Shown here: one piece after another, positions 4,226 through 34,464 of the stretch | How the letters are laid out: every line of letters starts with the position of its first letter | Numbering within the stretch: the stretch's first letter is position 1 | Assembly: GCA_902613595.1 (NCBI GenBank) | Contig: CACMHY010000001.1 | Coordinates: forward strand, 806,001-870,000 | Source of the DNA: an uncultured Bacteroidota bacterium | GTDB lineage: Bacteria; Bacteroidota; Bacteroidia; Flavobacteriales; Flavobacteriaceae | DNA: 64,000 nt | Reading direction: 5' to 3' | The notes under the pieces: model-generated | What the model was told of the DNA's origin: nothing | The model's database searches: none | The model's input: the letters and a program-made list of their open reading frames with translations, nothing else | Position numbers and translations under genes: made by a program

Positions 4226-4251
4226 TAAAACTTATAGTATCTATTTAAATA

Positions 4252-4280: not shown

Positions 4281-4303
4281 ATTTTGTGGATACTAAGTTG
4301 GTT

Positions 4304-4564: not shown

Positions 4565-4582
4565 TATAATAAAATTTAATTG

Positions 4583-5134: not shown

Positions 5135-5154
5135 TAACGTACCATTATGGTCGG

Positions 5155-5184: not shown

Positions 5185-5195
5185 TTTAGTACCAA

Positions 5196-5573: not shown

Positions 5574-5594
5574 TCTAGTATTAGTTCATAAAAT

Positions 5595-7447: not shown

Positions 7448-8012
7448 ATAAATCTTCCTTGAAATCAAAAACTTTAACCTCGGATAGTGAAGGATTTGAT
7501 TTGTCTTTTTTGGATTGTATCCAATCATCTTTTGGAATTTTCCAGTCAATTTTGAGGTTAGGATCATTGGGATTAATACCTCTCTCATTTTTTGGATAAT
7601 GATATTGATCAACTTTATAATGAAAAATGGAACTTTCACTAAGAGTTATATATCCATGAGCAAAGCCTCTTGGTATAAAAAGTTGAAGTAGATTTTCAGA
7701 ACTTAATTCTAAGCTAAAATTATGCCCAAAAGTAGGTGACCCTTTTCTAATATCAACAACTACATCAAGTATTTTCCCTTTTAAAACGCTCACTAATTTT
7801 GACTGTGAGTATGGCGAAATTTGATAATGTAAGCCCCTTATCACATTTTTTTTTGAATAAGTTATATTATCTTGACAAAATACAATATCTTTTTTTACGT
7901 ACTCGATAAAGCTTTTGCTCACAAAACTTTCAGAAAAAGATCCTCTCTCGTCATTATATTTTTTGGATTGTAAAACAAGAACATCATTAAAAATTGATTT
8001 AATTAGTCTCAT
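7440..8012 (-). CDS. rfbC: dTDP-4-dehydrorhamnose 3,5-epimerase
   Basis: A 190-residue cupin-fold epimerase of the rhamnose pathway. RGLHYQ carries the catalytic His, followed by VVDIRKGSPTFG and PRGFAHGY, all family hallmarks. The ATG at 8012 overlaps the rfbA stop (ATGA), so I prefer it over an in-frame TTG two codons upstream. The roughly 25-residue tail is slightly longer than in E. coli RmlC. Confidence 0.94.
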   Translation of the reverse strand: MRLIKSIFNDVLVLQSKKYNDERGSFSESFVSKSFIEYVKKDIVFCQDNITYSKKNVIRGLHYQISPYSQSKLVSVLKGKILDVVVDIRKGSPTFGHNFSLELSSENLLQLFIPRGFAHGYITLSESSIFHYKVDQYHYPKNERGINPNDPNLKIDWKIPKDDWIQSKKDKSNPSLSEVKVFDFKEDLYG

Positions 8013-8884: not shown

Positions 8885-8924
8885 AAATTAGGCTTTTAAG
8901 TAAATATATGGAGAATTTGAAAAT

Positions 8925-16507: not shown

Positions 16508-17546
16508 AATTATAATATTTTAAATACCAATCTATAAAGAAATTTACCCCTTCTTTTATTTTAGTTTTGGGGCTAAATTTAATTTTAGATATCAATTCAT
16601 CAACATTAGCGAAAGTAGCGGGTACGTCTCCAGGCTGTAGAGGCATGTAATTAATTTTAGCCTTTTTGCCCAATCTTTTTTCTATAATCTCTATAAAATC
16701 ATCTAATTGAACAGGGTCATTGCTTGCTATATTAAATATTTCATTAGGACAGCTAAATTTATTTATGTTTATATCATTTTTGTTTACTAATCTTGGAGCA
16801 TCAGACTCAATGAGCTTTGCTATTGATATAACAATGTCTTTAACATATGTAAAATCTCTAGTCATTTTACCATTGTTGTAAACGTCGATTTTTTTACCTG
16901 AAAGAATTGAATTTGTAAACTTAAAAAGTGCCATGTCAGGCCGGCCCCAAGGGCCATAAACTGTAAAAAATCTTAATCCTGTCGTTCTTATATTAAACAA
17001 ATGGCTGTATGTATGAGCCATTAATTCATTTGATCTTTTAGTAGCAGCATAAAGACTTATTGGGTGACTTACTGGTTGGCTCTCTGAAAATGGAAATAGG
17101 TTGTTTAACCCATAAACAGATGAACTACTTGCATATAACAAGTGCTTAATTTTAAAAGTTTTGCAAAGTTCAAGTATATTTAAAAATCCTGTTATATTAG
17201 AGTCTAAGTAAGTCTGAGGAAAATCGATGCTATATCTTACTCCTGCTTGAGCTGCTAAATTTATAACATAATCAAACTTATGATTCTCAAATAGAATACT
17301 CAAAGATTTTTTGTCAATTAAATCAATCTTTTCAAAATATAAGTTATCGTATTTTTTACTTTTTATTGATTCACTTGAAGCTTCATCGATATTTAAACCA
17401 ACATTTTTTAATCTGTCTCTTTTAAGACCAATATCATAATATGCATTTAGGTTGTCAATTCCAACAATTAAATAATTATCTAGAAGCTCTTTTGTCAAGT
17501 GATATCCTATAAAACCAGCTGAACCTGTAATTAATACTTTCTTCAC
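16494..17546 (-). CDS. UDP-glucuronate 4-epimerase-like NAD-dependent epimerase
   Basis: A 350-residue extended SDR: ITGSAGFIGYHL near 6-17, NLNAYYDIGLKRDRL, SSSSVYG, YAATKRSNELMAH (YxxxK) and RFFTVYGPWGRPDMALF, the last being the signature of UDP-GlcA 4-epimerases (LspL/Cap1J). It would make UDP-GalA from the UDP-GlcA supplied by Ugd (31259), although it lies next to the TviB-like dehydrogenase and could act on that product instead. GTG start at 17546, sharing GTGA with the upstream stop. Confidence 0.86.
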   Translation of the reverse strand: MKKVLITGSAGFIGYHLTKELLDNYLIVGIDNLNAYYDIGLKRDRLKNVGLNIDEASSESIKSKKYDNLYFEKIDLIDKKSLSILFENHKFDYVINLAAQAGVRYSIDFPQTYLDSNITGFLNILELCKTFKIKHLLYASSSSVYGLNNLFPFSESQPVSHPISLYAATKRSNELMAHTYSHLFNIRTTGLRFFTVYGPWGRPDMALFKFTNSILSGKKIDVYNNGKMTRDFTYVKDIVISIAKLIESDAPRLVNKNDININKFSCPNEIFNIASNDPVQLDDFIEIIEKRLGKKAKINYMPLQPGDVPATFANVDELISKIKFSPKTKIKEGVNFFIDWYLKYYNYGQD

Positions 17547-18811
17547 AATCTAAATGATACAAGTTCTTTAGAAAGATGCGATTTAAGGTCAAAAATAAAT
17601 GAGTTTGAATTTATTTTTTTTATAAAATTGGTGTCATACTGCTTGTGAGGAACACAAAGAATTATTAAATCAAATTTTTCTTTTTCCAAGTCAACATCAT
17701 CAATTAATTGAATATTATAAGTTTTTTTAACCTCTTCCTTACTTGCTATACTATCATGTACAAATGAGTTTATTGAATAGCTTTTTAATTGATCATAAAC
17801 TTTTATTACTCCAGTATTTCTTATATCTGGACAATTTTCTTTAAAGGTAAACCCAAGAAGTAATGTTTTGAGTTCTAATATATTAAATCCTTTACTTAAT
17901 AATTTTTTCACAAGAACATCTATAACTTTATACCCATAACTGTCATTAATTTCTCTACCTGCCAATATGATTTTAGGGTCAACACCAACTTCGGAGGCTT
18001 TATATGAGAGATAATACGGATCAACTCCAATACAATGTCCTCCAACCAGACCAGGTGAAAAATTCAAAAAATTCCATTTTGTCGCTGCTGCCTCAAGAAC
18101 CTCTGAAGTATCTACTCCAATTTTATTAAATACCAGTGATATTTCGTTCATGAATGCTATGTTGATATCCCTTTGACTGTTTTCAATAATTTTAGCTGAT
18201 TCTGCTACTTTAATGCTTGATGCTCGATGTGTACCTGCTTTTACTATTGAACCATACAATTTATCAACAAACTTAGCAGTTTTATCATTGGATCCTGATG
18301 TTATTTTAATAATGTTTTCTAGGCAATTCACTTTGTCACCTGGATTAATTCTCTCTGGTGAATATCCACAAAAGAAGTCAACATTATAAGTTAAATTGGA
18401 TTCGTTTTCAAGAATTGGAACACAAATCTCTTCAGTTGTTCCAGGATAGACGGTAGATTCATAAATAATTATATCATTTTTTTTTAGATTCTTAGCTACT
18501 AGTTTTGTTGCAGAAATAATACTTTTTAAATCTGGATTTTTATCATCTGTAATCGGGGTTGGAACAGTAACTATGTAGATATTACAATCAATTAAATCTA
18601 ATTTATTATTGGTAACGTATAAATTCGTATTCAATGACTTTTTTAGCTGATCCGAATTTGTTTCCATGGTCGAGTCAACACCTTTATTTAATTGATTGAT
18701 TCTATGAAAATCAATATCAAACCCAACAACCTTATTTTTTTTTGAAAAAGCTAAAGCTAAGGGAAGTCCCACATATCCTAAACCAATTATTCCAATTTTG
18801 TTAAATTCCAT
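17543..18811 (-). CDS. nucleotide-sugar 6-dehydrogenase (TviB/WbpO type)
   Basis: A 422-residue UDP-glucose/UDP-HexNAc dehydrogenase. NAD motif IGLGYVGLPLALAF near 9-22, ESTVYPGTTEE, and the catalytic Cys in GGHCIGVDPYYL. The shape (IGVDPYYL, VGVDPKIILAGREIND) is that of TviB/WbpO/WbpA enzymes that oxidise UDP-GlcNAc or UDP-GalNAc to the uronic acid, and not that of the second, Ugd-type dehydrogenase at 31259. It would thus feed an amino-uronic acid to the glycan. ATG start overlapping neuA by 11 bases. Confidence 0.88.
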   Translation of the reverse strand: MEFNKIGIIGLGYVGLPLALAFSKKNKVVGFDIDFHRINQLNKGVDSTMETNSDQLKKSLNTNLYVTNNKLDLIDCNIYIVTVPTPITDDKNPDLKSIISATKLVAKNLKKNDIIIYESTVYPGTTEEICVPILENESNLTYNVDFFCGYSPERINPGDKVNCLENIIKITSGSNDKTAKFVDKLYGSIVKAGTHRASSIKVAESAKIIENSQRDINIAFMNEISLVFNKIGVDTSEVLEAAATKWNFLNFSPGLVGGHCIGVDPYYLSYKASEVGVDPKIILAGREINDSYGYKVIDVLVKKLLSKGFNILELKTLLLGFTFKENCPDIRNTGVIKVYDQLKSYSINSFVHDSIASKEEVKKTYNIQLIDDVDLEKEKFDLIILCVPHKQYDTNFIKKINSNSFIFDLKSHLSKELVSFRL

Positions 18812-19484
18812 TTTTATTTTTTAAAAGTAAACTTGCAAGTTTTAAATCAGACTCTTCGTCTATATCTATACTCTCAATTTTTGACATTTGATAGCCTAAA
18901 ATTTTTCCTCCAAAAATATAGTCTTTAATATTAACCCTTTTAGTTATATAGATTGCAGCGCCATTTCTAGCATAATATTCTTCCTTTTGGTGTCTGTTGT
19001 ATATTTTTGAGTTGTCTATTTCAACTAAATAGCCATTTTTATTTTTCATTAAAGATTTAGGAACAAAATTATGAGGGATATTTACAACACTAACTAAACT
19101 ATTAGCTTCAGGATTTTTTAAAATTAATTCCATTGCTTCATTAATATGAATTTCTGTTCTTAAGGGGGATGTTGGCTGCAGATATACAATGTATCGATGA
19201 TTAATTTTTTTTGTTTCCAAAACATGATTAACTACATCAATCGCTTTAGATTCATCTTTTGATATCTCATCTGGCCGTTTTATATAATCATAACCCTTTT
19301 TTAAACAATAATTAATCAATTTTTGAGAATCAGTTGAGATTACAAAATCATCAATCTTAGATGCTATTACTGAATTTATTGTATGCTGAATTAATGGAAC
19401 TCCATTTAAATCAATCATATTTTTATTTTTTATTCCTTTGCTTCCAGCTCTTGCTGGAATTATTGCAAAAAAATCACCTCTCAT
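18801..19484 (-). CDS. neuA: CMP-nonulosonate cytidylyltransferase (NeuA/LegF family), copy 1
   Basis: A 227-residue CTP transferase that activates a nonulosonic (sialic-type) acid. FAIIPARAGSKGIKNKN near 6-22 is the CTP-binding signature; LQPTSPLR and SIDIDEESDLKLA are conserved. There is no C-terminal phosphatase or esterase domain. It directly follows neuC and neuB (neuB-neuC-neuA transcription order), together a complete UDP-GlcNAc to CMP-nonulosonate set. Whether the acid is Neu5Ac or a legionaminic type is not fixed by sequence reading alone. Confidence 0.88.
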   Translation of the reverse strand: MRGDFFAIIPARAGSKGIKNKNMIDLNGVPLIQHTINSVIASKIDDFVISTDSQKLINYCLKKGYDYIKRPDEISKDESKAIDVVNHVLETKKINHRYIVYLQPTSPLRTEIHINEAMELILKNPEANSLVSVVNIPHNFVPKSLMKNKNGYLVEIDNSKIYNRHQKEEYYARNGAAIYITKRVNIKDYIFGGKILGYQMSKIESIDIDEESDLKLASLLLKNKNGI

Positions 19485-20644
19485 TAATAATTTATTATTT
19501 TTTGTATCTGTGGTAATTTTATATCAGATAGTAATTTCGAAATTTTTTCTCCAGCATTTCCATTTCCATAAAGTACTTTTGAATCATATTTATTTATTTG
19601 AATTTGATCTTCAATTGCCTTTAAAATATTATCTTTTTTATATTCAACATCTATCACATTATCACCTCTATGTCTAAGGTTTTGACGGCTCCCAATATTT
19701 ACAACAGGTGTCCCTATAAATTCACCTTCTCTTATACCAGAACTACTATTACCAATTAAACAGGAGGTCGTATTCATCAAATGAATATAGTGTGCAATTG
19801 GTAAGTTTTTATAAATGCTTAACCAATAACAGTTGTTTTTTTCCCTAAATGATCTTATTGCTTTAGAAATTTCGTCGCTCCCAGCGTCAATATTAGGCCA
19901 TAACATTATCGTGGGTAATTTTAGAATATTCAAGGCCTCCAAGGTTTCATTAATGTGGATGCGATTTTTTCCGAATTCAGTAGTAACAGGGTGTTGAGAC
20001 ACTAGCAAGAATTTTTCCTTAAAATTTATTTGAGTTCCAACACCTTTGTTTTTATTAAAGTTTTTTTCTAAGAATTCCACCGAATTTTTTCTGAGCTCTT
20101 CTTTTACGAGATCAATTCTAGGGCATCCAAAATTAAAAACAAACTTTGGGTCTTCTCCTAATTTTATAATTCTGTTTTTAGCATCTTCATTTGATGGAAA
20201 ATGAATGTGTGCAAACTTCGTAATTGCGTGTCTGATGCTTTCATCGATAGTTCCTGTTACTTCACCTCCCATTGTGTGAACTAAAATTCTATTTGTGTAA
20301 ACTGTTGCAATTGCAATAGACATCATCTCAAATCTATCTCCCACAACTATAACAATTTCTGGATCAAGATTATCTATGATCATAGTCATTTCAATTATAC
20401 CAAGTCCTGTAGATTTTGACATGGTTATAGGGTTTTCACCTTCAATATTATTATAAAATTTTGAATCAATTTTAAACCCATCTTTTTTTATTAAATCCTC
20501 AACCTTTCCAAATCGATCCAAAACTGCAGAAGATCCCAAGACAACCTGTAATTCTATTTTTGAATTATTTTTCAAGTGATGCATCACAGACTTTATGCTA
20601 CTATAATTTGCACGACTACCAACAAAAACACATATTTTTCTCAT
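19484..20644 (-). CDS. neuC: UDP-GlcNAc 2-epimerase, hydrolysing (NeuC/LegG family)
   Basis: A 386-residue GT-B-fold enzyme: KICVFVGSRANYSSIKS at the start, VVVGDRFEMMSIAIA, HTMGGEVTGTIDESIRHAITK and SCLIGNSSSGIREG near 310. Hydrolysing enzymes release free ManNAc (or its 2,4-diacetamido analogue) for NeuB. It is different from the WecB-type enzyme at 11160. It begins within one base of the neuB stop and ends at the neuA start. No LegB/LegC/LegH genes lie beside it, favouring UDP-GlcNAc and so a Neu5Ac-type product (inference). Confidence 0.88.
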   Translation of the reverse strand: MRKICVFVGSRANYSSIKSVMHHLKNNSKIELQVVLGSSAVLDRFGKVEDLIKKDGFKIDSKFYNNIEGENPITMSKSTGLGIIEMTMIIDNLDPEIVIVVGDRFEMMSIAIATVYTNRILVHTMGGEVTGTIDESIRHAITKFAHIHFPSNEDAKNRIIKLGEDPKFVFNFGCPRIDLVKEELRKNSVEFLEKNFNKNKGVGTQINFKEKFLLVSQHPVTTEFGKNRIHINETLEALNILKLPTIMLWPNIDAGSDEISKAIRSFREKNNCYWLSIYKNLPIAHYIHLMNTTSCLIGNSSSGIREGEFIGTPVVNIGSRQNLRHRGDNVIDVEYKKDNILKAIEDQIQINKYDSKVLYGNGNAGEKISKLLSDIKLPQIQKIINY

Positions 20645-21634
20645 TTATTTTAATTCTTCCTTTTTAATTAATTGGTCCTTTTTAACCTCGGACAAAAGAA
20701 TTTTACCAATAATTTCCTTGTAGTATTTAGGGGGTAAACCGTTACCTGGTTTTTTAAATGATAAATCACTAAACTCTATCATTTTGCCCTTTTCTAGATC
20801 TTTTGACGCTACAATTGATTTTTGAAATGTAATTCTCATGTTTTTAATATTATCGTCAAAATTATTTTTTTTTATTTCTGAGGATAAAGCCTTTTCTAAT
20901 TTTCGAATTTCATCAACCATGAATTTAAATTCTTTTGGCTCAAATGAATTTTTTGCATCACTACCATACATTTCTTTTGAAAGTGTAAAATGTTTTTCAA
21001 TGATTTTTGCTCCAAAAGTAATAGCGGCAATAGGGATAGCTATAGAATCTGTGTGGTCTGAAAAGCCTATGGGAATATTGTATCTATTTTTATAGAAATC
21101 AATCATATTTAGTCCTGACTTTTCTGGAGGACAAGGATATTCGGATGTACACTGAAGTAAGCTTATTTTATTTTTTTTAAAAATTGATACTGCCAAATCT
21201 ACTTCGTCTAAATTACTCATCCCAGATGAAATAATAACCTCTTTATGTGTTTTAGCTATTTTTTCTAAAAGAGGAATATTTGTAATTTCTCCAGAAGGTA
21301 TTTTGTATTTTTTTAATCCTATCGATTCCAGTAAATCAACAGCTTCAAGTGAAAAAGGAGATGAGATAAAGTCCTTATTTAGTTTTATCTCAACATAATC
21401 TTTTAAGCTTTCCCATTCGTTTTTTGAAAAGGCCGTTCTATTAAAGTACTGCTCTCTAGTTTCATCAGAGAAATATGGGGGATTAGGAGCTCTTTTCGTG
21501 CTTTCTGCAGAAAAAATATGCGTTTGAAATTTAATTGCATTAGCCCCCATTTTAGATGCAGACTCGGCAAATTTTTTCGCTAAGCCCAAGGAACCCTCAT
21601 GAGTATTACCTATTTCAGCTATAATGTATGTCAT
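20645..21634 (-). CDS. neuB: N-acetylneuraminate/nonulosonate synthase, copy 1
   Basis: A 329-residue NeuB-family aldolase-type enzyme that condenses PEP with ManNAc or a related sugar. TYIIAEIGNTHEG near 2-14, KFQTH, KIPSGEITNIPLLE, LQCTSEYPCP, GFSDHT and IEKHFTL are present, with a C-terminal SAF (antifreeze-like) domain from about 265. The usual GPDH motif after KHFTL is replaced by YGSDAKNSFEP, so it forms a different subgroup from copy 2 at 28675. Immediately upstream of neuC. Confidence 0.88.
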   Translation of the reverse strand: MTYIIAEIGNTHEGSLGLAKKFAESASKMGANAIKFQTHIFSAESTKRAPNPPYFSDETREQYFNRTAFSKNEWESLKDYVEIKLNKDFISSPFSLEAVDLLESIGLKKYKIPSGEITNIPLLEKIAKTHKEVIISSGMSNLDEVDLAVSIFKKNKISLLQCTSEYPCPPEKSGLNMIDFYKNRYNIPIGFSDHTDSIAIPIAAITFGAKIIEKHFTLSKEMYGSDAKNSFEPKEFKFMVDEIRKLEKALSSEIKKNNFDDNIKNMRITFQKSIVASKDLEKGKMIEFSDLSFKKPGNGLPPKYYKEIIGKILLSEVKKDQLIKKEELK

Positions 21635-21635
21635 T

Positions 21636-23063
21636 TTATATTTTTTTAATTTTATGGATTAAACTCTGGTTATAGAATATGAAAATTAAAAATGAAATAA
21701 TCGCAAAAAGTGTGAACTTGAATAAAAAACCTGAAAAAAATGTATCTCCTAAATATTCTACATGTGGAATATAACTGAGACAAATAATTAAAATTGAAAA
21801 TATTAATAACTGTAAATTAATTTTTATATCCATATACTTATCAAGATAAAATTCTACAATTAAATATGATATTAATTGAGATAAGCCTACTACATATGGT
21901 ATTGAATTTATCTTAAAATATTTAATAAGAAAATAATTTAATACCACACTTATCGTAAAACATATGAGAGAAATTATAAAAATAAAATTTGTTTTTTTTA
22001 GAAAATAAAGCCCTAGAGCTTTTACATTGTATAGAACTCTAAAAAAGAATGAACAGTTTAGAATCAAAAAAAATAGATGTGCGCCGACGTACTTTTCGTC
22101 AAGAAATATTTCAAAAATTTCTTTTGAAAATACATTTGCACTAAAAACAATTAGCGTTACAGAAATAATCTGAAAGTAACCAAAACTTTCTGCAGAAATT
22201 AATGCGTCAGGTATACTATTTTTTGCCTTTTCATAAAAAAATGGTTGATAAGAAAGGGAGATCTGATTTGCAACAAATTTAATTAAAGATGAGAATTTGT
22301 AAGCAATGAAATATAGCCCTAACAATTCTAAAGACAAATATCTCTCAAAAAAATATCTATCCGTATAAATAGATAAGGAAGCTAAAAAAGCATATGGTAT
22401 AAGGGGTATTGAATATTTTACTGAATCTGAAAATATTTTATTATCAAATTTTACTGGGGTAAAATAGTCTTTAAATTTAATTATTTGAATTCCTATAGTA
22501 ATAATTGAGCTTAGAACCATTATTGAAAAAAGTACATTTATTCCATAGCCCATAGATAAAAAATATATTTTCAAAATGGCACTGAAAATACTAACCGAAA
22601 AATTTAATTTAAATAAAAACCTGCTATTTTTTGTTATCCTAATGAGATATTCAAAAAAAGCAGTAAAACAGAACAAATAAGCTAGAAATAATCCCAATCT
22701 TACTTCATATAAATTATTAAATAATTTACTTTTTATCAGAAACACAAAATATTCAGTGAAATAAAGAAAAAACCCTAGTAACAGAGAAGCAATTATAAAT
22801 AAGGTAAGGAGCGACTGTGAAATTAAATTTTCTATTTTTTGATATTTATAATCAAAAAACAAAACATTTATAGGTTGATGCAATTGTAAAGAAATTATAG
22901 TACTAAAAACCAATTGTAATCCAATAATTAAAGAGTAAAGGGCAACTTCAATAGGACTTAAATATTTTGTCATAAAAGGAATGACAATTAGCCCAGTTAT
23001 TATTCCAATGATTTTTGATACTGTAAACCAGGCTGTTTCTTTTGCAAGTTTTTTAAATATCAA
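21636..23063 (-). CDS. wzx: oligosaccharide flippase (Wzx-like, MATE/MOP superfamily)
   Basis: A 475-residue integral membrane protein with about 12-14 hydrophobic segments. It begins FKKLAKETAWFTVSKIIG and has GLIVIPFMTKYLSP near 25-40, the standard Wzx N-terminus. It would flip undecaprenyl-PP-linked repeat units across the inner membrane. The start is TTG, sharing TTGA with the upstream stop; no nearby ATG keeps the first helix. It is the only flippase in the locus. Confidence 0.88.
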   Translation of the reverse strand: MIFKKLAKETAWFTVSKIIGIITGLIVIPFMTKYLSPIEVALYSLIIGLQLVFSTIISLQLHQPINVLFFDYKYQKIENLISQSLLTLFIIASLLLGFFLYFTEYFVFLIKSKLFNNLYEVRLGLFLAYLFCFTAFFEYLIRITKNSRFLFKLNFSVSIFSAILKIYFLSMGYGINVLFSIMVLSSIITIGIQIIKFKDYFTPVKFDNKIFSDSVKYSIPLIPYAFLASLSIYTDRYFFERYLSLELLGLYFIAYKFSSLIKFVANQISLSYQPFFYEKAKNSIPDALISAESFGYFQIISVTLIVFSANVFSKEIFEIFLDEKYVGAHLFFLILNCSFFFRVLYNVKALGLYFLKKTNFIFIISLICFTISVVLNYFLIKYFKINSIPYVVGLSQLISYLIVEFYLDKYMDIKINLQLLIFSILIICLSYIPHVEYLGDTFFSGFLFKFTLFAIISFLIFIFYNQSLIHKIKKI

Positions 23064-24328
23064 GATAGTATAGTTTGCAGCATTTGATTCATCTTACTTT
23101 CACTACTTTGTGAAAACAAATATTTTCTTTTTAAAGTTTCCCAATCTTTCGAATAATCAATTACTTCATTATTTTTTAATTCAGTACTCAGTAATTCCAT
23201 AGAATCAACATACGTTATAGATTCAAGATTACTAAACATACTCATATCTAAATCAAAAAAGTTTAGAATAATTGTCTTGACTCCTAATAGAGTTGACCAA
23301 ATTGCTACTGATGAATTAACACAAACAAATAATTTTGCATGAATTAATTCTTCATGTATTGGTTTTTTTGTAATAAGGCATTTGAATTTTTTTTCTAAAA
23401 ATTTGTAATTTTTATAATTTGATTTTGGATGCAAGCTAATTATTACCTTCTGATTACCACACAAAGTCTTTAAAAGTTGGTTGATGAATTTAATATGAGT
23501 TTCCCAGTTTAGAATTTTATGTTCATATAAATGAGGTAAGCTCAGCAAAATATTTTTTTTCTTTTTTTCAAGATTTTCTGAAAAATAGTCAAACTCATTT
23601 CTACCAACATATCTAATTTTTTCATGTCGCAAGATATTTTTTGAAACTTGATTGAGTGTGTGATTTGAATCTAAACATAAAATTGTTGTTGTTGGGTGGT
23701 TTCCTATAGAGAATGGGTTTTCTGTAATGCAATTAAATAGCTTAAGTGTAAAGTATTGTGATAAGGAATAAAAGCCATAAGTGCTTTTATCTTTTTGAAA
23801 TTTATATTTTGAGTTGATCAATTTCTTTCCAATGATATTTAATTTGAAAGCCACTGGGTTTTTAACTCTAACTAATTGACCTGAGTTTATAATTGACAAA
23901 TAAGGTAATACTATTTTGATCCTGAATTTTTTAGCTAGAATTAAAATTATAGTCTCAAAACTTGGCCCTGATCTGTCACTATTCAATAAAATTAACTTTG
24001 GGACTTGATCCAAAATCAGTTTTTGAATTTTTAACTTATTATTTATTAAAAAAAAGGAATAAAAAATTATTCCGATTGGACTATTATGAAAAATTATTTT
24101 TGCTAAAATTTTTAAAAATGATGTTTTTGAGTTATTGGGATCTTGGTTTGACTCTTTAAAAAAGTTTGTTTTTTTTGCTCCATTAAAATCCAAAAGTTCA
24201 ACTTTTTTAAAACAGGTGATTAAAAAAAATATTTCATTTTCTTTATCTAGACTTTGAGCTAATTTTAACTGTGAATTAAAGTTTGCTTTTTTATCTACTA
24301 AAATCCATATAATGGATTTACCACTCAT
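23060..24328 (-). CDS. probable capsule-type GT-B glycosyltransferase, family unrecognised
   Basis: A 422-residue protein without a family I can name. The N-terminal part (SIIWILVDKKANFNSQ) looks Rossmann-like; the C-terminal half has KVIISLHPKSNYKNYKFL near 295, then HEELIHAKLFVCVNSSVAIWSTLLGVK. This basic HPK strand and Ser-rich loop resemble polysialyltransferase/KpsS-like capsule transferases that use CMP- or UDP-sugars. As it lies between a NeuA gene and wzx, a nonulosonate transferase is a reasonable guess, no more. ATG start. Confidence 0.55.
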   Translation of the reverse strand: MSGKSIIWILVDKKANFNSQLKLAQSLDKENEIFFLITCFKKVELLDFNGAKKTNFFKESNQDPNNSKTSFLKILAKIIFHNSPIGIIFYSFFLINNKLKIQKLILDQVPKLILLNSDRSGPSFETIILILAKKFRIKIVLPYLSIINSGQLVRVKNPVAFKLNIIGKKLINSKYKFQKDKSTYGFYSLSQYFTLKLFNCITENPFSIGNHPTTTILCLDSNHTLNQVSKNILRHEKIRYVGRNEFDYFSENLEKKKKNILLSLPHLYEHKILNWETHIKFINQLLKTLCGNQKVIISLHPKSNYKNYKFLEKKFKCLITKKPIHEELIHAKLFVCVNSSVAIWSTLLGVKTIILNFFDLDMSMFSNLESITYVDSMELLSTELKNNEVIDYSKDWETLKRKYLFSQSSESKMNQMLQTILS

Positions 24329-25032
24329 TTTAAGTCGATTTTTTTGGAGACTATCTCAGCAATTTCCCAATCTAATTCATCATCAATATCTATTGAATAG
24401 TTCTGTTCCATTTCAAATTGCTTTATTTTACTAAAACTATTTATATAGCCTGATTTGAGAGATGCAATATTGAATAGAAAAATTGACCCATTAAGTTCAT
24501 AAACATTTGGACAGTCCTGTCTTCGATAATAATCTCCTTTTTTTGATCTTTCTAAAAATCCATTATTATTTTCCTCATATAAAGTGAAATATGGATTAGA
24601 TTTTGATTTAACAACTGAAATTATAGCATCCAAATCTTCGCTATATTCATTAAATATTTTTTTAAGGTCGGAGTCTTTTCTGAAGGGAGAAGTAGGTTGG
24701 AGCATAATTAGTTTTTTGTAATACATATTTCTCTCCTCTAATTCATGTATTGTATGTAATAGTGTATCATAAATTGGAGACTCATCAGTTGATAAATTTT
24801 CAAGTCTTTTGTTGGGAATATTTAAATTATATTGTTTTGATATGTCTAAAACTTTATCACAATTAGTTGAAATAAAAATATCTTCTTTTCTGAAGTTTCT
24901 TATAGCAAAGTCTATAGTATAAGATATTAAAGGCTTTCCATTTAACTTTTTAACATTTTTGCCTTTGATACCTTTTGAACCTGATCTCGCAGGTATAAAA
25001 ATGAGAGTATCATCTTTGTTGTTTAAGTTCAT
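24325..25032 (-). CDS. CMP-nonulosonate cytidylyltransferase (NeuA/PtmB family), copy 2
   Basis: A 235-residue CTP transferase: IFIPARSGSKGIKGKN near 11-26, STNCDKV, LQPTSPFRK and SIDIDDELDWEIAE, all diagnostic. It is distinct in sequence from copy 1 at 18801. It follows gmd (overlapping by 23 bases) and belongs to the sub-block gmd, aminotransferase, TIM-barrel, formyltransferase, neuB2. This implies a second nonulosonic acid or at least a second activation step. The ATG at 25032 is preferred over a TTG two codons upstream. Confidence 0.87.
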   Translation of the reverse strand: MNLNNKDDTLIFIPARSGSKGIKGKNVKKLNGKPLISYTIDFAIRNFRKEDIFISTNCDKVLDISKQYNLNIPNKRLENLSTDESPIYDTLLHTIHELEERNMYYKKLIMLQPTSPFRKDSDLKKIFNEYSEDLDAIISVVKSKSNPYFTLYEENNNGFLERSKKGDYYRRQDCPNVYELNGSIFLFNIASLKSGYINSFSKIKQFEMEQNYSIDIDDELDWEIAEIVSKKIDLK

Positions 25033-26041
25033 CTTCAATCATTAATTCAACCAATTCTTTAAATTTTACTTTTGGAGTCCAGTTCAGCTTTTTTTTAGCT
25101 TTAGATGGGTTTCCAACCAATAAATCAACTTCAGTTGGCCTAAAATAGTATTGATCTATTTCAACTAGAATTTTGTTACTATTTTTCTCGATACCAACTT
25201 CATTAATACTAGATCCCCTCCAGATAATTTCAATATCTAAGAGTTTGAATGCATATTCAATTAATTCTCTGACCGAATGGTGTTCTCCAGTGGCAATAAT
25301 AAAATCTTCTGGTGTTTTAGTCTGGAGCATCCTCCACATGGCATCCACATATTCAGGGGCATATCCCCAATCTCTTCTTGAATCTAAATTTCCAACCCTA
25401 AGAGTTCTATTCTTACCATTTTTGATTTTAACTACAGTTTCGATAACTTTTTTTGTAACGAAACTATTTCCTCTTCGAGGGCTCTCATGATTAAATAAAA
25501 TTCCATTTGCTGCAAAAATATTGTATGCCTCCCTGTAATTTATAGTAAGCCAATAAGCATAAAGTTTAGCCGCGGCATAGGGGCTCCTTGGATAAAAAGG
25601 TGTTTCTTCTGTTTGGGGTACTTCTTTAACTTTTCCATATAATTCACTTGTGGAAGCTTGATAGAACTTTGTCGTTGATTCAAATTTATTTTGCCTTATT
25701 GATTCCAAAATATTCAACGTACCTATAGCGTCTGTTTGTGCAGTGTAACCAGGAATATCGAACGAAACTCTCACATGACTTTGAGCCGCTAAATTATATA
25801 TTTCATCAGGTTTGACTTCAGAGATAATTCTGTTTATACTGAGCGAGTCAGTTACATCACCATATAAAGGTTTAAACAGTTCATTTTTTGTGTCCCCTTT
25901 ATATAAATGATCTACCCTGGATTTAAATTCTAAACTAGATCTTCTCAAAACTCCATAAACTTCATACCCTTTTTCTAATAAGTATTCTGACAAGTAACTC
26001 CCGTCTTGTCCTGCAACACCAGTAATCAACGCTTTTTTCAT
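25010..26041 (-). CDS. gmd: GDP-mannose 4,6-dehydratase
   Basis: A 343-residue extended SDR: ALITGVAGQDGSYLSEYLLEKGYEVYG near the start, NLAAQSHV, STSELYG, YAAAKLYAYW (YxxxK) and LFNHESPRRG, which together identify Gmd. It converts GDP-D-mannose to GDP-4-keto-6-deoxy-mannose. The partner here is not a fucose synthase but a DegT-type aminotransferase just upstream, pointing to GDP-perosamine. ATG at 26041 with GGGAATTAAG ahead is preferred over a TTG four codons upstream. Confidence 0.92.
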   Translation of the reverse strand: MKKALITGVAGQDGSYLSEYLLEKGYEVYGVLRRSSLEFKSRVDHLYKGDTKNELFKPLYGDVTDSLSINRIISEVKPDEIYNLAAQSHVRVSFDIPGYTAQTDAIGTLNILESIRQNKFESTTKFYQASTSELYGKVKEVPQTEETPFYPRSPYAAAKLYAYWLTINYREAYNIFAANGILFNHESPRRGNSFVTKKVIETVVKIKNGKNRTLRVGNLDSRRDWGYAPEYVDAMWRMLQTKTPEDFIIATGEHHSVRELIEYAFKLLDIEIIWRGSSINEVGIEKNSNKILVEIDQYYFRPTEVDLLVGNPSKAKKKLNWTPKVKFKELVELMIEDELKQQR

Positions 26042-26042
26042 C

Positions 26043-27122
26043 TTAATTCCCAATTATTAATGAACAGATTTTTTCAATCTCACTTTCTCTTAGTGATGGA
26101 AAAGATGGCAATAATAATCCTTTCCTATAAATACTTTTTGCCACTACACATTTTGAGTTTTCATAAAAAGGTAAAAGGTCAATAGGTGTAAAAAAAGGTC
26201 TGGTTTCAATATTATTTTTATTTAAAATATTCTCTGTCTCACGCTTTTGCTCAACCTTATCGAATATTACAGGTACCATCCAATATGAAGGTGTGCTCCC
26301 TTTTAGTTTATTAAGAAATTTAACCTTATTGGATAGTAATTTTTCATATTTATGGTAAACTATTGATTTACGCTCTAAAATTTCTTTTATGTTATCTATT
26401 TGAGCACAGCCTATTGCAGCTTGTATGTTTGTCATTCTGTAGTTATATCCTAATATATCATGGAAATATGTTTGAGATAAAGAATTACCTTGATTTTTGA
26501 GCTGTTTGATTTTTTCAAAATGTTTTTTTTGCTTACATATTACCATACCACCTTCCCCTGTTGTAATTGTTTTATTCCCAAAGAATGAAAATGTTGAAAT
26601 ATCAGAATATGATCCTGACATATCCTTTCCCAATGATGCTCCAAATGATTCTGCAGCGTCTTCAATAAGGTATAAATTATGTTTTTTACATATATTTTTG
26701 ATTTTAACCAGATCTACCATGTAACCATAAACATTTGTGACCAATATTGCTTTTGTTTTTTTGGTAACTAATTTTTCGATCAAACTAGAGTCAATATTTA
26801 AATCTGATTCTCGTATTTCACAAAAAACAGGTGTAGCGCCGGTGATTAATATTGAATTAGTTGACGCAACATAAGTGAAATTTGTTGTTATAACTTCATC
26901 GCCTTTTTTGATACCAATAGCAAGTAAAGCAAGGTGTAGAGCTGTTGTCCCGTTTGATGTTGAAGAACAGTATTTGGCTCCTATAAAATCACTAACTTTT
27001 TGTTCAAATTTTGATATGAATCTTCCCTTAGATGAAATCCAACTACTCTCAATACACTCTTGAACGTATTGTTTTTCCTTTTCGCCAATCCAAGGTTTAC
27101 AAATAGGAATTCTAGAATCCAC
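26043..27122 (-). CDS. DegT/DnrJ/EryC1 aminotransferase, perosamine-synthase-like
   Basis: A 359-residue PLP enzyme: ESSWISSKGRFISKFE near 28-43, GTTALHLALLAIG, EDAAESFGA, and the PLP Lys in FFGNKTITTGEGGM. The WISSKG start and GNKTITTGEGG block are typical of GDP-perosamine synthase (Per/RfbE), which aminates GDP-4-keto-6-deoxymannose, the Gmd product. Gmd is the next gene. An alternative is a LegC-type enzyme for nonulosonates. GTG start overlapping the TIM-barrel gene. Confidence 0.86.
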   Translation of the reverse strand: MDSRIPICKPWIGEKEKQYVQECIESSWISSKGRFISKFEQKVSDFIGAKYCSSTSNGTTALHLALLAIGIKKGDEVITTNFTYVASTNSILITGATPVFCEIRESDLNIDSSLIEKLVTKKTKAILVTNVYGYMVDLVKIKNICKKHNLYLIEDAAESFGASLGKDMSGSYSDISTFSFFGNKTITTGEGGMVICKQKKHFEKIKQLKNQGNSLSQTYFHDILGYNYRMTNIQAAIGCAQIDNIKEILERKSIVYHKYEKLLSNKVKFLNKLKGSTPSYWMVPVIFDKVEQKRETENILNKNNIETRPFFTPIDLLPFYENSKCVVAKSIYRKGLLLPSFPSLRESEIEKICSLIIGN

Positions 27123-27966
27123 TTGACAAAATATTTTTTTGATTAATAATTAATTCTGGTTTCAGGTTTTTAACTTCTATAACATGATTCATTGGCTTTA
27201 GGAATTTAAGAAATGGGGAAAACCAATAGTATTTATCTATTGGCAAATTTAAATCTTCAAAACCATCATTATCGCTGTGATGAACGGAACCTATGTAAGG
27301 AAACAATCTATTTGTTTCTTTAAGTAAGTCTATACCTAGAGTCTTACATGAAACCTTTAAATGACCTGTATCAAGTAGTAGTTGAAATCTTCTAGAATTG
27401 ATTTCCTTTGAAATGTAAACAATATCTTGGCTATCCGTGCAAAGAAATATATTTTGATTGTTATTGGCTGAATAATTTTGGCTAGATAATACGTTATTTT
27501 CTATCAAAAAGGGCACATCATATTCATTCGAATATTTTAATAACTCGCTTAGAGTTTCGATAAATATCTCTAAGTGTTGTTTTTTGTCAAATTTTCCATC
27601 ACTTAAGATTTTTTTACCAAGTGAACTAACTTTAGGGTCGATACAAAATCCTGCATGCACAGCATAAAAATTTAATCCTAGTTCAGCTGTTCGTCTTATA
27701 TTTTCTTTGCAATGACTGATAGATCTTCTTAAAATGTTAGAATCCTTACTCGCTAAATTTATAACAAAAGGTTCCTTTGGTGCTGGGAAATAGTTATGTA
27801 TAAGTTTTTTACCGTTAAACTCATTTAAGAATTTTAAATTATCTCGATTATACGATATGCTGGAACTAAATTCCAAGTTGAAGTTATTTTGTTCACAAAT
27901 TTTTATCACTTCAATTAATTTTCTGTCATTGAATGCGATTGAACTAATAAAAATTTCATTTTTCAT
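27112..27966 (-). CDS. sugar phosphate isomerase/epimerase-like TIM-barrel protein
   Basis: A 284-residue protein of the xylose-isomerase-like/AP endonuclease 2 superfamily. Metal-site signatures can be seen: AVHAGFC near 100, LLIENNV near 155, LLLDTGHL near 195 and SVHHSDNDG near 225 (His, Glu, Asp/His, His ligands). Such proteins isomerise or epimerise sugars, or act on other polyols. It has no standard place in perosamine, Neu5Ac or legionaminate pathways, so its step is unknown. It overlaps both neighbours, so it is firmly part of the operon. Confidence 0.75.
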   Translation of the reverse strand: MKNEIFISSIAFNDRKLIEVIKICEQNNFNLEFSSSISYNRDNLKFLNEFNGKKLIHNYFPAPKEPFVINLASKDSNILRRSISHCKENIRRTAELGLNFYAVHAGFCIDPKVSSLGKKILSDGKFDKKQHLEIFIETLSELLKYSNEYDVPFLIENNVLSSQNYSANNNQNIFLCTDSQDIVYISKEINSRRFQLLLDTGHLKVSCKTLGIDLLKETNRLFPYIGSVHHSDNDGFEDLNLPIDKYYWFSPFLKFLKPMNHVIEVKNLKPELIINQKNILSSGF

Positions 27967-28678
27967 TTTTTAACCTTAGGTAATCATTTAGATTTTCTAT
28001 TGGATAACCATTAAAGGTTGACAAAGGGTATGGCGGATGAATCATAGCTCTTATGAATCTTTCAACCTTTTTAATGTCCCAATCACTTGAAATTTTACCT
28101 CCATATGGAACTCCCCTTTTGTAATATTTTCCACCATCATTCTGTTTAAGGCCTTTTCTGCCTTGAATCACAAACATTAAAACATTTAAAAAATCACTTT
28201 TTGATTCTAGCATTACTTTGTTATATAAACTTTCTTGGGTGTCATAAGAGTTAATCAATATTCTCTTTTGTAAAATAATAGAACCTTTATCCAATTGAGG
28301 GCTTATATAATGGTATGTATAGCCTGTATGTTCTTCGCCATTTACCAATGCCCACGTTATACTTGAGCAGCCTCTATAATTTGGTAGTAAGGAAGGATGT
28401 AAGTTAAAAATTTTCCCATGACAAAAATCAATAATTTCTTTTGAAATAATATATCTGTAATAAATACTACAAATCACATCGGGTTTAAAAGGTAAGTTAT
28501 CTATTGATATTTTTTCGTGTGAATATTCAATGTTTAGTTTTTCACAAAATGAAGTTAAATCAGGAATATGATATGGTGCTTTGTGTGTATATACAAATAT
28601 TTGGAATCCCTTTTCTTGAAGGATGTTAAGGACTTCACACCCAATCAAATTATATCCGCAAAGGATTACTTTTTTCAT
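27956..28678 (-). CDS. formyltransferase-family protein, probable sugar N-formyltransferase
   Basis: A 240-residue protein with the catalytic formyl-transferase block NLHPSLLPNYRG near 92-103 (Asn and His) and the Asp in SPQLDKGSIIL near 128. It has no C-terminal tRNA-binding domain, so it is not Met-tRNA formyltransferase. Sugar N-formyltransferases of this size act on 4-amino-4,6-dideoxy sugars using formyl-THF; Brucella WbkC makes N-formylperosamine. With gmd and a perosamine-synthase-like gene within 3 kb, GDP-N-formylperosamine is the simplest reading; formylation of a nonulosonate precursor is the alternative. Confidence 0.82.
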   Translation of the reverse strand: MKKVILCGYNLIGCEVLNILQEKGFQIFVYTHKAPYHIPDLTSFCEKLNIEYSHEKISIDNLPFKPDVICSIYYRYIISKEIIDFCHGKIFNLHPSLLPNYRGCSSITWALVNGEEHTGYTYHYISPQLDKGSIILQKRILINSYDTQESLYNKVMLESKSDFLNVLMFVIQGRKGLKQNDGGKYYKRGVPYGGKISSDWDIKKVERFIRAMIHPPYPLSTFNGYPIENLNDYLRLKNEK

Positions 28679-29685
28679 ATGTGATGGAAAGAAACCAATT
28701 CATCTACTTGAACACTTTTAGTAAGTTTTTGACCAAGGAAATGGACTTGTTCGTTCGGTGACAATCCATTAAAGGGTCTTTTGTATTCAAAATGGGATTC
28801 ATTTAAAATTTCTCCTGTATTTAATGACTTAGAATAAACCAAACTTCTTTTCATTCCAGTTATATTAAGTTTTTCTGCCTCTGTTGGTTTTTTTATAGGA
28901 TTCCCTAAAGACTTTTCTGTTTCTCTGATACCTTTTACAAGTTCAGTAAAACCAGATGGATCTAAAGAACAACTATGATCAGGGCCTTTCATGTTCTTGT
29001 CTAAAGTGAAATGTTTTTCAATAACCTTAGCTCCTTTAGCGACTGCCGCATAACAGGCATAATTATTTTTGACGTGATCAGAATACCCAATTTCAATACC
29101 ATCTAATTTTTTAAATGATTCCAATACATTAATGTTAGCATCTTCAACCTTGGAAGGGTAATTTGTGGTACACTGGAGAATTGTCAGGCCAATTGAGGAA
29201 TCCATTTCTTTTATTTTTTCAACAGCTTTTACAACATCCGAGTAGTATGACATACCAGTAGATAAATAAATTGGCTTTTTTTTGCTTGCTACATATTCTA
29301 TAAAAGGTATTTCAGTAAGCTGACCAGATGCTATTTTAAATGAATCAACATCTAAATCTATTAAAAAATCTACATCCTCTTTGTTGTACGGTGTTGACAT
29401 AAAATCTATTTTGATTTCTTTACAAAAATCTATTAATTCAATGTAGTCGCTTTTTTCAAGTTGCAAGGAGGATAACATTTCAAACTGACTTTCCTTAGGA
29501 TCAGTAACCTTTAATTGATATACCGCCTTAGGGGCCTCTTGAGTAACTAAATTTGAAGCTTTAAATGTTTGAAACTTCACACAATCAACATTGGATTTTT
29601 TTGCTTCTTTAATTAGCTGTAAAGCAATATCTAAGTCTCCGTTATGATTTACTCCCGCTTCTGCAATAATATAAACTGGTTTCAT
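28675..29685 (-). CDS. nonulosonate synthase (NeuB/LegI family), copy 2
   Basis: A 336-residue NeuB-type PEP-condensing enzyme: YIIAEAGVNHNGD near 5-17, KFQTFKASNLV, FKIASGQLTEIPF, LQCTTNYPS, GYSDHV, KHFTLDKNMKGPDHSCSLDP, then a C-terminal SAF domain. It has the classical GPDH motif, unlike copy 1 at 20645. It lies in the gmd/aminotransferase/formyltransferase block with NeuA copy 2, not with the neuC gene, so its six-carbon substrate is uncertain. ATG start, overlapping the methyltransferase stop by 4 bases. Confidence 0.88.
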   Translation of the reverse strand: MKPVYIIAEAGVNHNGDLDIALQLIKEAKKSNVDCVKFQTFKASNLVTQEAPKAVYQLKVTDPKESQFEMLSSLQLEKSDYIELIDFCKEIKIDFMSTPYNKEDVDFLIDLDVDSFKIASGQLTEIPFIEYVASKKKPIYLSTGMSYYSDVVKAVEKIKEMDSSIGLTILQCTTNYPSKVEDANINVLESFKKLDGIEIGYSDHVKNNYACYAAVAKGAKVIEKHFTLDKNMKGPDHSCSLDPSGFTELVKGIRETEKSLGNPIKKPTEAEKLNITGMKRSLVYSKSLNTGEILNESHFEYKRPFNGLSPNEQVHFLGQKLTKSVQVDELVSFHHI

Positions 29686-30509
29686 TTTTTTGCAATTAAT
29701 CTTAGTGTGATCCCATTTTCATTTAATGAAAAGTTACTTTGGGGTAATTTTTTAAAACTGTGAACTTGATTTTTATAGTCATAAAATGATCCCCAGTTTT
29801 GTCCAAATGTATTTATGTCGATTATTTTCAAGCCACAATTATTTAGCATTATTTTTAGTGATTTATCAGTAAAAAAATTTACATGGGGGGTGTCAATAAA
29901 GTTTAGTTTAAAGTATTCTTTATTACAATTCGGCACCTCAATATAAATTGTTCCATTAACACTTAAATTTTTTTTTAGACTATCAATAAATTTTTCTGGT
30001 TGACATATATGCTCTAAAACATGGCTCAAATGAATGTGATCATAAATTTGATCATCAACATCAATCTTAATTATATTATTTTTCTTGTAGAATTCATCGA
30101 ACGCTGATGATGGTTCATAAACATATAATTCAACTTTTTTATGCTTTGATCTGTACAATCTTGAAAAGCTTGAATAGCCGCCTCCAATCTCAAGTATATT
30201 TCTTATAGATTTAGAATGTTTAGAAATGAAATCGAATTGATATTGTGCTTTATAATCATTTTGGTTAGAGGGCAAAATGTCATTTTTTTTTCTTTTCCTT
30301 AGATCCCAATATTTTTTTTTATAATAATTGTCTAAAATTTCTTGACTAATTTTTACATACCCAAAGCTACACACTTTACATAAGTAGATTTTTCTTCTAG
30401 AAAAAATACTATTAAAAAAAAGATATTTTATAAATCCTTTTAATGTAAATATATGCAAATTATATCTTCTGTAGTAAAACAGATTACTACCACAACATTG
30501 ACATATCAT
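29682..30509 (-). CDS. class I SAM-dependent methyltransferase with N-terminal zinc-ribbon cysteines
   Basis: A 275-residue protein. The N-terminus has CQCCGSN at 3-9 and CKVC near 44-47, a likely structural zinc site. The methyltransferase core follows: ILEIGGGYSSFSRLY near 105-119 (SAM motif I), IHLSHVLEHI near 158 and GTIYIEVPN near 183 (Methyltransf_23 type). Such proteins often sit in O-antigen clusters and methylate sugars. It is coupled with neuB2 by an ATGA-like overlap. Target unknown. Confidence 0.8.
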   Translation of the reverse strand: MICQCCGSNLFYYRRYNLHIFTLKGFIKYLFFNSIFSRRKIYLCKVCSFGYVKISQEILDNYYKKKYWDLRKRKKNDILPSNQNDYKAQYQFDFISKHSKSIRNILEIGGGYSSFSRLYRSKHKKVELYVYEPSSAFDEFYKKNNIIKIDVDDQIYDHIHLSHVLEHICQPEKFIDSLKKNLSVNGTIYIEVPNCNKEYFKLNFIDTPHVNFFTDKSLKIMLNNCGLKIIDINTFGQNWGSFYDYKNQVHSFKKLPQSNFSLNENGITLRLIAKK

Positions 30510-33990: not shown

Positions 33991-34464
33991 TTAAGCTGCC
34001 TGCTTTTTTAGGGTAATACACATCCCTAGAGAAACTAACTGTAATTTAACTTTTGTATTATCTGTTTGAACTACTTCACCCGACACTCCTGAAAAAGGAC
34101 CCTCCTTGATTGTATGGGACTCTCCCACACTTAAATTAGCTACATTAATGTAATTATATACACCATTTAAGTGATGCTTCATCAAATCAATCTCAGAGGC
34201 ATGAACAACAGCTGGTTTACCCAGGTAAAATAGATAACGCACTATACCAGAGCAAGAGAAAACTATACCTCGCTCTTTTTCTTCCAACTGAACCATTACA
34301 TAGGAAGAAAGTAGGGGTTTAGTTATTTTTTTCTTTCTATCAGAATACTGTTTTAAAATAGTAATGGTTGGGCAGTAGTTTTTGATATGCATCATAGAAA
34401 GCTGCTTAGCTACTTTTAGCTCCTGCTGAGGGCGAGTATAAATAACAAACCATTTTTTTCCCAC
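33991..34464 (-). CDS. UpxY family transcription antiterminator (NusG/RfaH paralogue)
   Basis: A 157-residue NusG-like protein: KKWFVIYTRPQQELKVAKQL near 3-22 and YCPTITILKQYSDRKKKITKPLL form the NGN domain, and IKEGPFSGVSGEVVQ near 118-132 is the KOW motif. UpxY proteins head capsule operons of Bacteroidota and let RNA polymerase read through long polysaccharide operons. Its position as first gene of about 30 minus-strand genes fits. Start codon is GTG at 34464, with a leader hairpin just upstream and a promoter at 34562-34592. Confidence 0.92.
   Translation of the reverse strand: MGKKWFVIYTRPQQELKVAKQLSMMHIKNYCPTITILKQYSDRKKKITKPLLSSYVMVQLEEKERGIVFSCSGIVRYLFYLGKPAVVHASEIDLMKHHLNGVYNYINVANLSVGESHTIKEGPFSGVSGEVVQTDNTKVKLQLVSLGMCITLKKQAA

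Follow-up and report, generated by a model that had tools for sequence, protein, structure and literature searches.

What is made by a block of six overlapping genes that combines enzymes for a guanosine diphosphate (GDP)-linked sugar with enzymes for a nine-carbon nonulosonic acid? The block lies on the minus strand, between positions 24325 and 29685, of a 64,000-nucleotide stretch of DNA (here, the window) from an uncultured Flavobacteriaceae bacterium (GenBank assembly GCA_902613595.1, contig CACMHY010000001.1, positions 806,001 to 870,000), whose genome is 1.9 Mb long and 85% complete. An initial annotation, made from the sequence alone, had offered two models: two separate sugars, or one pathway in which a formylated sugar is isomerised and then condensed with phosphoenolpyruvate (PEP). 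We favour, at somewhat above an even chance, a single six-step pathway from GDP-mannose to a cytidine monophosphate (CMP)-activated nonulosonate, in which a triosephosphate isomerase (TIM)-barrel protein would be the hydrolase that releases the sugar from GDP. Our confidence differs between its parts. A single nonulosonate pathway encoded by the six genes seems very probable; if there is one, we are surer still that GDP-mannose is the starting point in the window; and, given one GDP-mannose-derived pathway, the TIM-barrel protein is likely to be the releasing hydrolase.

The six-gene block and its predicted pathway

All six genes were found where the initial annotation had placed them, and Pfam and TIGRFAM models assigned each to a family. 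From 29685 down to 24325, the overlapping open reading frames (ORFs) are:

28675..29685, minus strand: NeuB2, nonulosonate synthase (PF03102)
27956..28678, minus strand: sugar N-formyltransferase (PF00551, Formyl_trans_N)
27112..27966, minus strand: TIM-barrel protein of the endonuclease IV / xylose isomerase superfamily (PF01261, AP_endonuc_2)
26043..27122, minus strand: pyridoxal phosphate-dependent aminotransferase (PF01041, DegT)
25010..26053, minus strand: Gmd, GDP-mannose 4,6-dehydratase (TIGR01472, 526.5 bits, cut-off 415)
24325..25038, minus strand: NeuA2, predicted CMP-nonulosonate cytidylyltransferase (PF02348, CTP_transf_3, 66.1 bits)

TTG or GTG is the listed start in three of the six ORFs, and an ATG at 26041, judged by eye, is the likelier start of Gmd. 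The six had been described as translationally coupled. The overlaps are real, but the genes on either side (29682-30509 and 23060-24328) overlap the ends of the block just as its genes overlap one another, so overlap alone does not delimit it; recurrence in other genomes does.

Three of the enzymes together predict GDP-N-formylperosamine, as proposed earlier, Gmd being identified by its cut-off and the other two by their closest solved relatives. The dehydratase is Gmd and not LegB (121.3 bits on the LegB model, cut-off 475); its nearest solved relatives are GDP-mannose dehydratases, and it is the sole Gmd match in its own genome (E-value 1e-80). The aminotransferase is closest to the perosamine synthetases 3bn1, 3dr7 and 3dr4 (272-269 bits) and would be a GDP-4-keto-6-deoxymannose 4-aminotransferase of the GDP-perosamine synthase type. 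The formyltransferase, predicted to act on the amino group of GDP-perosamine, has as its best solved relative 5vys (9.1e-37), a GDP-4-amino-4,6-dideoxymannose formyltransferase that we take to be WbkC of Brucella, and it keeps N92, H94 and D130, presumably the catalytic residues. NeuB2 scores 285.7 bits on PF03102 (cut-off 22.1), 393.8 bits on NeuB_NnaB (cut-off 399.65) and 253.1 bits on PseI (cut-off 340.25), and the best solved relative of NeuA2 is a CMP-N-acetylneuraminate synthetase, 6ifd.

In the pathway that we infer from these assignments, Gmd would convert GDP-mannose to GDP-4-keto-6-deoxymannose, from which the aminotransferase would form GDP-perosamine and the formyltransferase GDP-N-formylperosamine. 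NeuB-type enzymes of this kind use free sugars, which means that the sugar has to come off GDP first; in known routes this is the task of PseG or a NeuC-type enzyme. The TIM-barrel protein, as a metal-dependent phosphohydrolase related to endonuclease IV, would split GDP-N-formylperosamine into free 4-formamido-4,6-dideoxy-D-mannose and GDP. NeuB2 would then condense the sugar with PEP to give 7-formamido-3,7,9-trideoxy-D-glycero-D-galacto-non-2-ulosonic acid (C10H17NO8, the predicted 5-hydroxy analogue of formylated legionaminic acid), and NeuA2 would activate this to CMP-7-formamido-3,7,9-trideoxy-D-glycero-D-galacto-nonulosonate for a surface glycan. Every reaction, the product and the glycan, and above all the step given to the TIM-barrel protein, are predictions from sequence. 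Mannose already has the C2 (manno) configuration required by NeuB, so a sugar derived from GDP-mannose would call for no epimerisation.

Recurrence of the block and placement of NeuB2

The six-gene set, which the initial annotation had suggested looking for in other genomes, was found across phyla. A scan of genome contigs with a four-sequence alignment, to which only genomes matching two peptide patterns were visible, gave 119 relatives, and 80 loci were kept. With L008, L010 and the window added, and with L009 (which shares a contig with L025), L036 and L090 (both lacking a called TIM ORF) dropped, the set came to 81 loci, some of them cut short by the end of a contig. Counting genes on both strands, 70 loci have NeuB no more than six genes away from TIM; the corresponding counts are 68 for a PerA-like aminotransferase, 59 for NeuA and 20 for Gmd. 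For an N-acyltransferase the count is 61 at a distance of up to three genes, and the aminotransferase stands directly 3' of the TIM gene in 55 loci. In 17 of the 81 loci, including the window, the full set of six functions is encoded on a single strand no farther than six genes from TIM, and these complete loci belong to Bacteroidota, Balneolota, Chlorobiota, Deferribacterota, Campylobacterota, Alteromonadaceae and Lysinibacillus. Because the same gene set recurs in other phyla, the block is not a chance association. Absence of the TIM-barrel gene from related loci had been named as an outcome that would count against a single pathway; instead, the gene recurs with NeuB, acyltransferase and aminotransferase.

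The exact gene order of the window with the same type of formyltransferase was found in only one other of the 81 loci, L014, and the acyl slot varies. The window-type formyltransferase is present in the window, L014 and L056 (which has no Gmd within its short contig) and a PurN-like formyltransferase in L063, while other loci have a GNAT or a NeuD/PglD-type acetyltransferase. Since different enzyme types fill this slot, the formyltransferase would appear to carry out acylation within a common pathway and not to belong to a separate sugar. This bears on the model of two sugars, in which GDP-N-formylperosamine would be made for direct transfer while NeuB2, NeuA2 and the TIM-barrel protein make an unrelated nonulosonate. 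Gmd, the Per-like enzyme and the 5vys-related formyltransferase would suffice for the first sugar, as Gmd, Per and WbkC do in Brucella, and the likeness extends to the closest solved relatives of two of the enzymes and to a Gmd score over the cut-off. The model would, however, leave NeuB2 without a substrate route in the block. It also sits poorly with the position of the aminotransferase directly 3' of the TIM gene and with the continued linkage of NeuB, acyltransferase, TIM and aminotransferase across phyla. The recurrence of this unit, together with the NeuB placements given below, supports one formamido-nonulosonate pathway and makes two separate sugars improbable. In Brucella the sugar is transferred from GDP, whereas that of the block would be released and extended to nine carbons.

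The starting sugar was considered through genome-wide family searches, which covered 50 of the 80 kept TIM genomes. Gmd exceeded its cut-off in 46 of these 50. In the window's phylum it did so in 87 of 148 genomes, an imperfect background given that the 50 span many phyla, and among named control genomes in 6 of 14. Where the only aminotransferase is one without a CBS domain, Gmd is no more than six genes away from TIM in 11 of 12 loci, the exception being L045. Several observations weigh against a general GDP-mannose start. No Gmd was found in 4 of the 50 TIM genomes, and just 9 of the 56 loci with a CBS-fused aminotransferase have Gmd within six genes. Moreover, L044 (Planctomycetes) has LegB beside the TIM gene and no Gmd found in its genome, so TIM-family proteins do not go with GDP-mannose in every case. 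A CBS-type N-terminal part was seen, by BLAST to seeds, on one PerA-like aminotransferase in 56 of the 68 loci having such a neighbour; these fused proteins are mostly about 465-500 amino acids long, and Pfam shows the CBS domain for L049 and L008. The L044 locus (549-9232) holds LegB, NeuB, TIM, two NeuD-type acetyltransferases, an aminotransferase and NeuA, with TIM apparently used with a GlcNAc (N-acetylglucosamine)-type dehydratase.

LegB is also at issue in another explanation, a variant of GlcNAc-derived legionaminic acid synthesis in which the aminotransferase would act as LegC and Gmd would serve another sugar. The aminotransferase reaches 339.3 bits on the LegC model (cut-off 420), and at several positions NeuB2 agrees with LegI-type NeuBs but differs from Neu-type ones, a pattern that fits a 4-acylamido-6-deoxy-manno substrate; L044 supplies the LegB neighbour. 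Nonetheless, the block has neither LegB nor LegG, its Gmd falls far short on the LegB model as given above, and LegB exceeded its cut-off in only 4 of the 50 TIM genomes, against the 46 with Gmd. We regard this variant as very improbable. The product predicted from GDP-mannose would share with legionaminic acid the D-glycero-D-galacto backbone and a 7-acylamido group, but would have one nitrogen where legionaminic acid has two. Published routes to legionaminic acid include, in the parts of these papers seen, the GDP route of Campylobacter cited in PMC6137143 and the sps route of Bacillus in PMC7439481.

Comparison of the NeuB sequences places the two synthases of the window in different groups. 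The tree held 99 sequences, comprising TIM-locus NeuBs of 300-400 amino acids and control-locus NeuBs of at least 250 amino acids. On it, 61 of the 71 TIM-labelled rows fall in three supported clades of 27, 22 and 13 rows. The smallest includes, in addition, a single row from a LegB locus, which is the L044 gene at zero distance. The TIM label requires 7 changes compared with 24.6 when labels are shuffled. NeuB2 groups with the NeuBs of L014 and L013 (support 100/100) in a TIM-linked clade and outside the PseG-linked clade, and NeuB1, encoded elsewhere in the window, groups with NeuC-linked NeuBs (support 100/99). The window thus holds two nonulosonate systems, of which NeuB1/NeuC1/NeuA1 is separate (NeuC1 scores 381.3 bits on TIGR03568, cut-off 235.9). 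The supply of NeuB2 and NeuA2 by the NeuC at 19484 had been raised as an objection to a new pathway; NeuC1 forms a set of its own with NeuB1. Against a strict link between TIM and one NeuB lineage, the TIM-linked NeuBs are not one clade, as 10 of the 71 rows lie outside the three main clades; the TIM-side NeuBs of L042 and L063 form their own pair, and that of L062 stands among NeuC-linked rows. The outlying rows are partly second NeuBs of TIM loci (such as L053, L077, L079 and L087). An attempt to read specificity from the differences between TIM-linked and LegI-type NeuBs was dropped because just three positions passed the thresholds.

Closer to the window, the TIM gene was found in 7 of 395 genomes of the phylum, including its own; of the others, two matched strongly, and in each the block has an acetyltransferase where the window has the formyltransferase. 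Among 100 relatives, many with incomplete genomes and 37 of them from the same genus besides the window's own genome, only the latter has the gene, and hence the cassette looks acquired. A phage origin was rejected: no TIM relatives were found in phages and viral contigs, and a phage search with NeuB2 gave three weak records. Loci joining NeuB and TIM were also seen in SAR11 (Pelagibacteraceae) and Prochlorococcus (L039, L041, L045, L050, L066, L072, L073, L081 and L086-L088). L045 and a locus on an Azospirillum plasmid, L008, hold an N-acetyl sugar amidotransferase (annotated in L008, recognised by eye in L045) together with HisH/HisF-type genes.

The release step and the TIM-barrel protein

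No PseG, NeuC or LegG was found within the six-gene block. Its own genome, at 85% completeness, gave no match to PseG (TIGR03590) at E≤1, and the one NeuC found there (E 1e-60) lies beside NeuB1, although its use by both systems is possible on sequence grounds. Across the 50 TIM genomes, PseG exceeded its cut-off in 8; a further 22 had weaker matches, many of them to only part of the model. Among 83 TIM loci scanned, PseG was present in L052, L053 and L076 and NeuC in L037, L051 and L087, six loci that each have a second NeuB. As controls, we used 20 NeuB loci without TIM, drawn from the higher NeuB2 matches among genomes of the phylum and leaving out the window's own genome, G231 (known to have TIM) and genomes found earlier through NeuC. 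In these, PseG or NeuC was present in 15 (PseG in 10, NeuC in 4, both in L151) and TIM in none. All 11 PseG calls match most of the family model at E 4e-37 or better, with 3 over the cut-off of 153.55 bits, and the four NeuC calls tested with the family model, which do not include that of L151, are all over theirs. All the other regular cassette members already have a role, and release from GDP is assigned to the TIM-barrel protein because that step otherwise has no enzyme. Some of the control results weaken this assignment: four of the 20 loci (L143, L145, L147 and L152) have no nearby releasing enzyme, a fifth (L136) has just a NeuC fragment, and 8 of the 11 PseG calls fall just under the cut-off, at 128-150 bits.

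Gene fusions support the assignment. A GNAT acetyltransferase and the TIM barrel form one ORF in L010, L024, L028, L029 and L034, and PseG is fused to a PseH-like GNAT in L053, L096, L144, L146 and L154. This shared pairing of acyl transfer with release suggests that TIM stands where PseG stands.

Conserved residues were compared in an alignment of 64 sequences, which took in the window's protein plus 63 of 67 TIM ORFs in the range 272-305 amino acids; it excluded L008, L033, L055 and L059 and any ORF that was fused or fell outside that range. H57, H104, E156, D199, H202, H229, D238 and E264 are identical in all 64, and position 240 is Asn in 62 and His in 2. In a profile alignment (hhalign) to Escherichia coli Nfo (probability 90%), H104, E156, D199, H202, H229, D238 and E264 correspond to Nfo H109, E145, D179, H182, H216, D229 and E261, and N240 lies opposite H231. 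The Nfo residues are, we presume, metal ligands of endonuclease IV, nine in all, so that seven align and are identical, an eighth (H57) is matched by eye, and the ninth is Asn in 62 of 64. H57 itself fell on Nfo T62 and not on H69; to judge from the stretches HNYFPAPKEPFVINLAS and HDSYLINLG, an insertion may have moved it out of register. The epimerase UlaE (hhalign probability 70%) has no partners for H104, H202 and D238. As the TIM-barrel protein matches the endonuclease IV ligands better than UlaE does, a multi-metal phosphohydrolase is favoured.

The main alternative keeps a single pathway but makes the TIM-barrel protein an isomerase, an epimerase or a metal-dependent oxidative enzyme acting on the sugar, with an unlinked enzyme releasing GDP. 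The fold gives it some support. The protein belongs to PF01261 (60.1 bits, cut-off 31.1), and its AlphaFold model is confident (mean predicted local distance difference test score, pLDDT, 96.5; predicted template modelling score, pTM, 0.93). With this model, Foldseek ranked MJ1311, titled D-tagatose 3-epimerase-like, first, UlaE third (1.8e-13, TM-score 0.68) and other epimerases next, whereas endonuclease IV appeared only from rank 27 (1.7e-10, TM-score 0.62); sequence profiles ranked MJ1311, endonuclease IV and tagatose epimerase in that order. The fold therefore leans to epimerases without deciding function. Further points also count against a hydrolase. Single-sequence family matches among the 64 members are mixed (nfo 30, IolO epimerase 28, psicose epimerase 22, ApyH, an iron-dependent oxidative enzyme, 19, and CbiR 10), and the window's protein scores 22.8 bits on the Nfo model TIGR00587, below the cut-off of 129.65. 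Multi-metal sites also occur in iron-dependent oxidative members of the superfamily. The hhalign comparisons with YcjR (probability 0.3%) and Hyi (3%), which lack several ligands, carry little weight, and among the matches listed in a search of open-access PubMed Central (PMC) literature we found no biochemistry for any step.

Nonetheless, an isomerase, as the initial annotation had it, would have little to do on a sugar that is already manno-configured. It would also leave the block without a linked releasing enzyme, would have to account for the ligands shared with Nfo and missing from UlaE, and fits poorly with TIM::GNAT fusions that mirror those of PseG and PseH. We consider such a role unlikely. 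The TIM-barrel protein is probably not an isomerase and, judged by its residues, would be a metal enzyme with an endonuclease-IV-like fold that replaces the usual hydrolase. A precedent outside DNA repair is CbiR, described in the part of PMC7733943 seen as a cobamide phosphodiesterase of the AP endonuclease 2 superfamily. Like CbiR, the TIM-barrel protein is a member of the PF01261 superfamily with conserved His, Asp and Glu residues as putative metal ligands and is predicted to hydrolyse a small-molecule phosphodiester, although the substrate of CbiR differs from the proposed GDP sugar. The CbiR matches, for their part, were counted at E 0.01, and the one score known is 24.9 bits against a cut-off of 105.

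Neighbouring genes, known pathways and wider relevance

Around the block, the window carries the following features:

29682-30509: methyltransferase flanking the block and overlapping its NeuB2 end
23060..24328, minus strand: ORF with no Pfam match, candidate CMP-nonulosonate glycosyltransferase (homologue in L051, phmmer 2.8e-39)
21636..23063, minus strand: putative Wzx-type flippase (PF01943)
18801-19484, 19484-20644 and 20645-21634, minus strand: NeuA1, NeuC1 and NeuB1, the separate system (TIGR03568 for NeuC1)

The same gene order is seen in L051 (1959-20510, Deferribacterales) as in the window (16494-29685), with some extra genes and with Gmd before NeuB2: NeuB2, acyltransferase, TIM, aminotransferase, NeuA2, the ORF (28% identical), flippase, NeuB1 (58%), NeuC1 (65%) and NeuA1. 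The two nonulosonate systems and the ORF of no known family thus seem to travel together in the window and L051. This ORF, of 422 amino acids between NeuA2 and the flippase, contains ISLHPK and NSS stretches reminiscent of the HP and SS sialyltransferase motifs known from bacteria; its predicted fold (mean pLDDT 47.3, two sequences) was not used. Farther along, two adjacent membrane/TPR-like ORFs (34718-37084 and 37029-39365), similar by eye, could be tandem copies of an O-antigen ligase/polymerase type, and a NusG-domain protein (33991-34464) just upstream of the cluster resembles, we assume, the UpxY-type regulators of capsule operons.

Among known systems, the pathway of pseudaminic acid proceeds through PseB, C, H, G, I and F, and by type of step these are matched in order by Gmd, aminotransferase, formyltransferase, TIM, NeuB2 and NeuA2, with acyltransferase-hydrolase fusions in both. 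The two differ in that pseudaminic acid synthesis uses uridine diphosphate (UDP)-GlcNAc and PseB where the block uses GDP-mannose and Gmd, and PseG where the block has the AP_endonuc_2 TIM barrel; NeuB2 falls below the PseI cut-off, and no PseG match was found in its genome. Pseudaminic acid, moreover, has an N-acetyl group at C5, where the predicted product would have a hydroxyl. Formamido groups on nonulosonates have been described, for example in 5-N-formyl-legionaminic acid of Halorubrum (PMC6137143) and 7-formamido pseudaminic acid of Pseudoalteromonas distincta (cited in PMC3210612 and PMC7281560). Unlike the predicted product, these are 5,7-diamino sugars, and the parts of those papers seen state no GDP-mannose route. 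A 274 Da sugar of the Shewanella sfm system was considered as the product and rejected, since it has two nitrogens according to the part of PMC3765264 seen. Among the matches listed in open-access PMC literature, no description of the six-gene set was found.

Genome-based predictions of surface nonulosonic acids in bacteria commonly rely on NeuC, PseG or LegB. The block has none of these, so its product could be miscalled as N-acetylneuraminic acid or legionaminic acid, or missed. We know of no gene set for nine-carbon sugars with a C5 hydroxyl and a C7 formamide or acetamide. If the proposed TIM step is true, it would be a new reaction for the AP endonuclease superfamily, would extend the known releasing enzymes, PseG and NeuC/LegG, by another kind, and would point to such a class of sugars. 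We tentatively propose, at just under an even chance, a widespread class of nonulosonic acid pathways defined by a GDP-mannose start, no C2 amino group and an endonuclease-IV-related GDP-sugar hydrolase. With the same reserve, the products of this class in Bacteroidota, Alteromonadaceae, Lysinibacillus and others would be 5-hydroxy legionaminic acids carrying a 7-N-formyl or 7-N-acetyl group, and the class is possibly also present in some SAR11 and Prochlorococcus cells. Named strains of Flavobacterium, Alteromonas and Lysinibacillus with relatives of the block, among them Flavobacterium taihuense (L018), Alteromonas sp. (L076) and Lysinibacillus capsici (L063), make the pathway testable.

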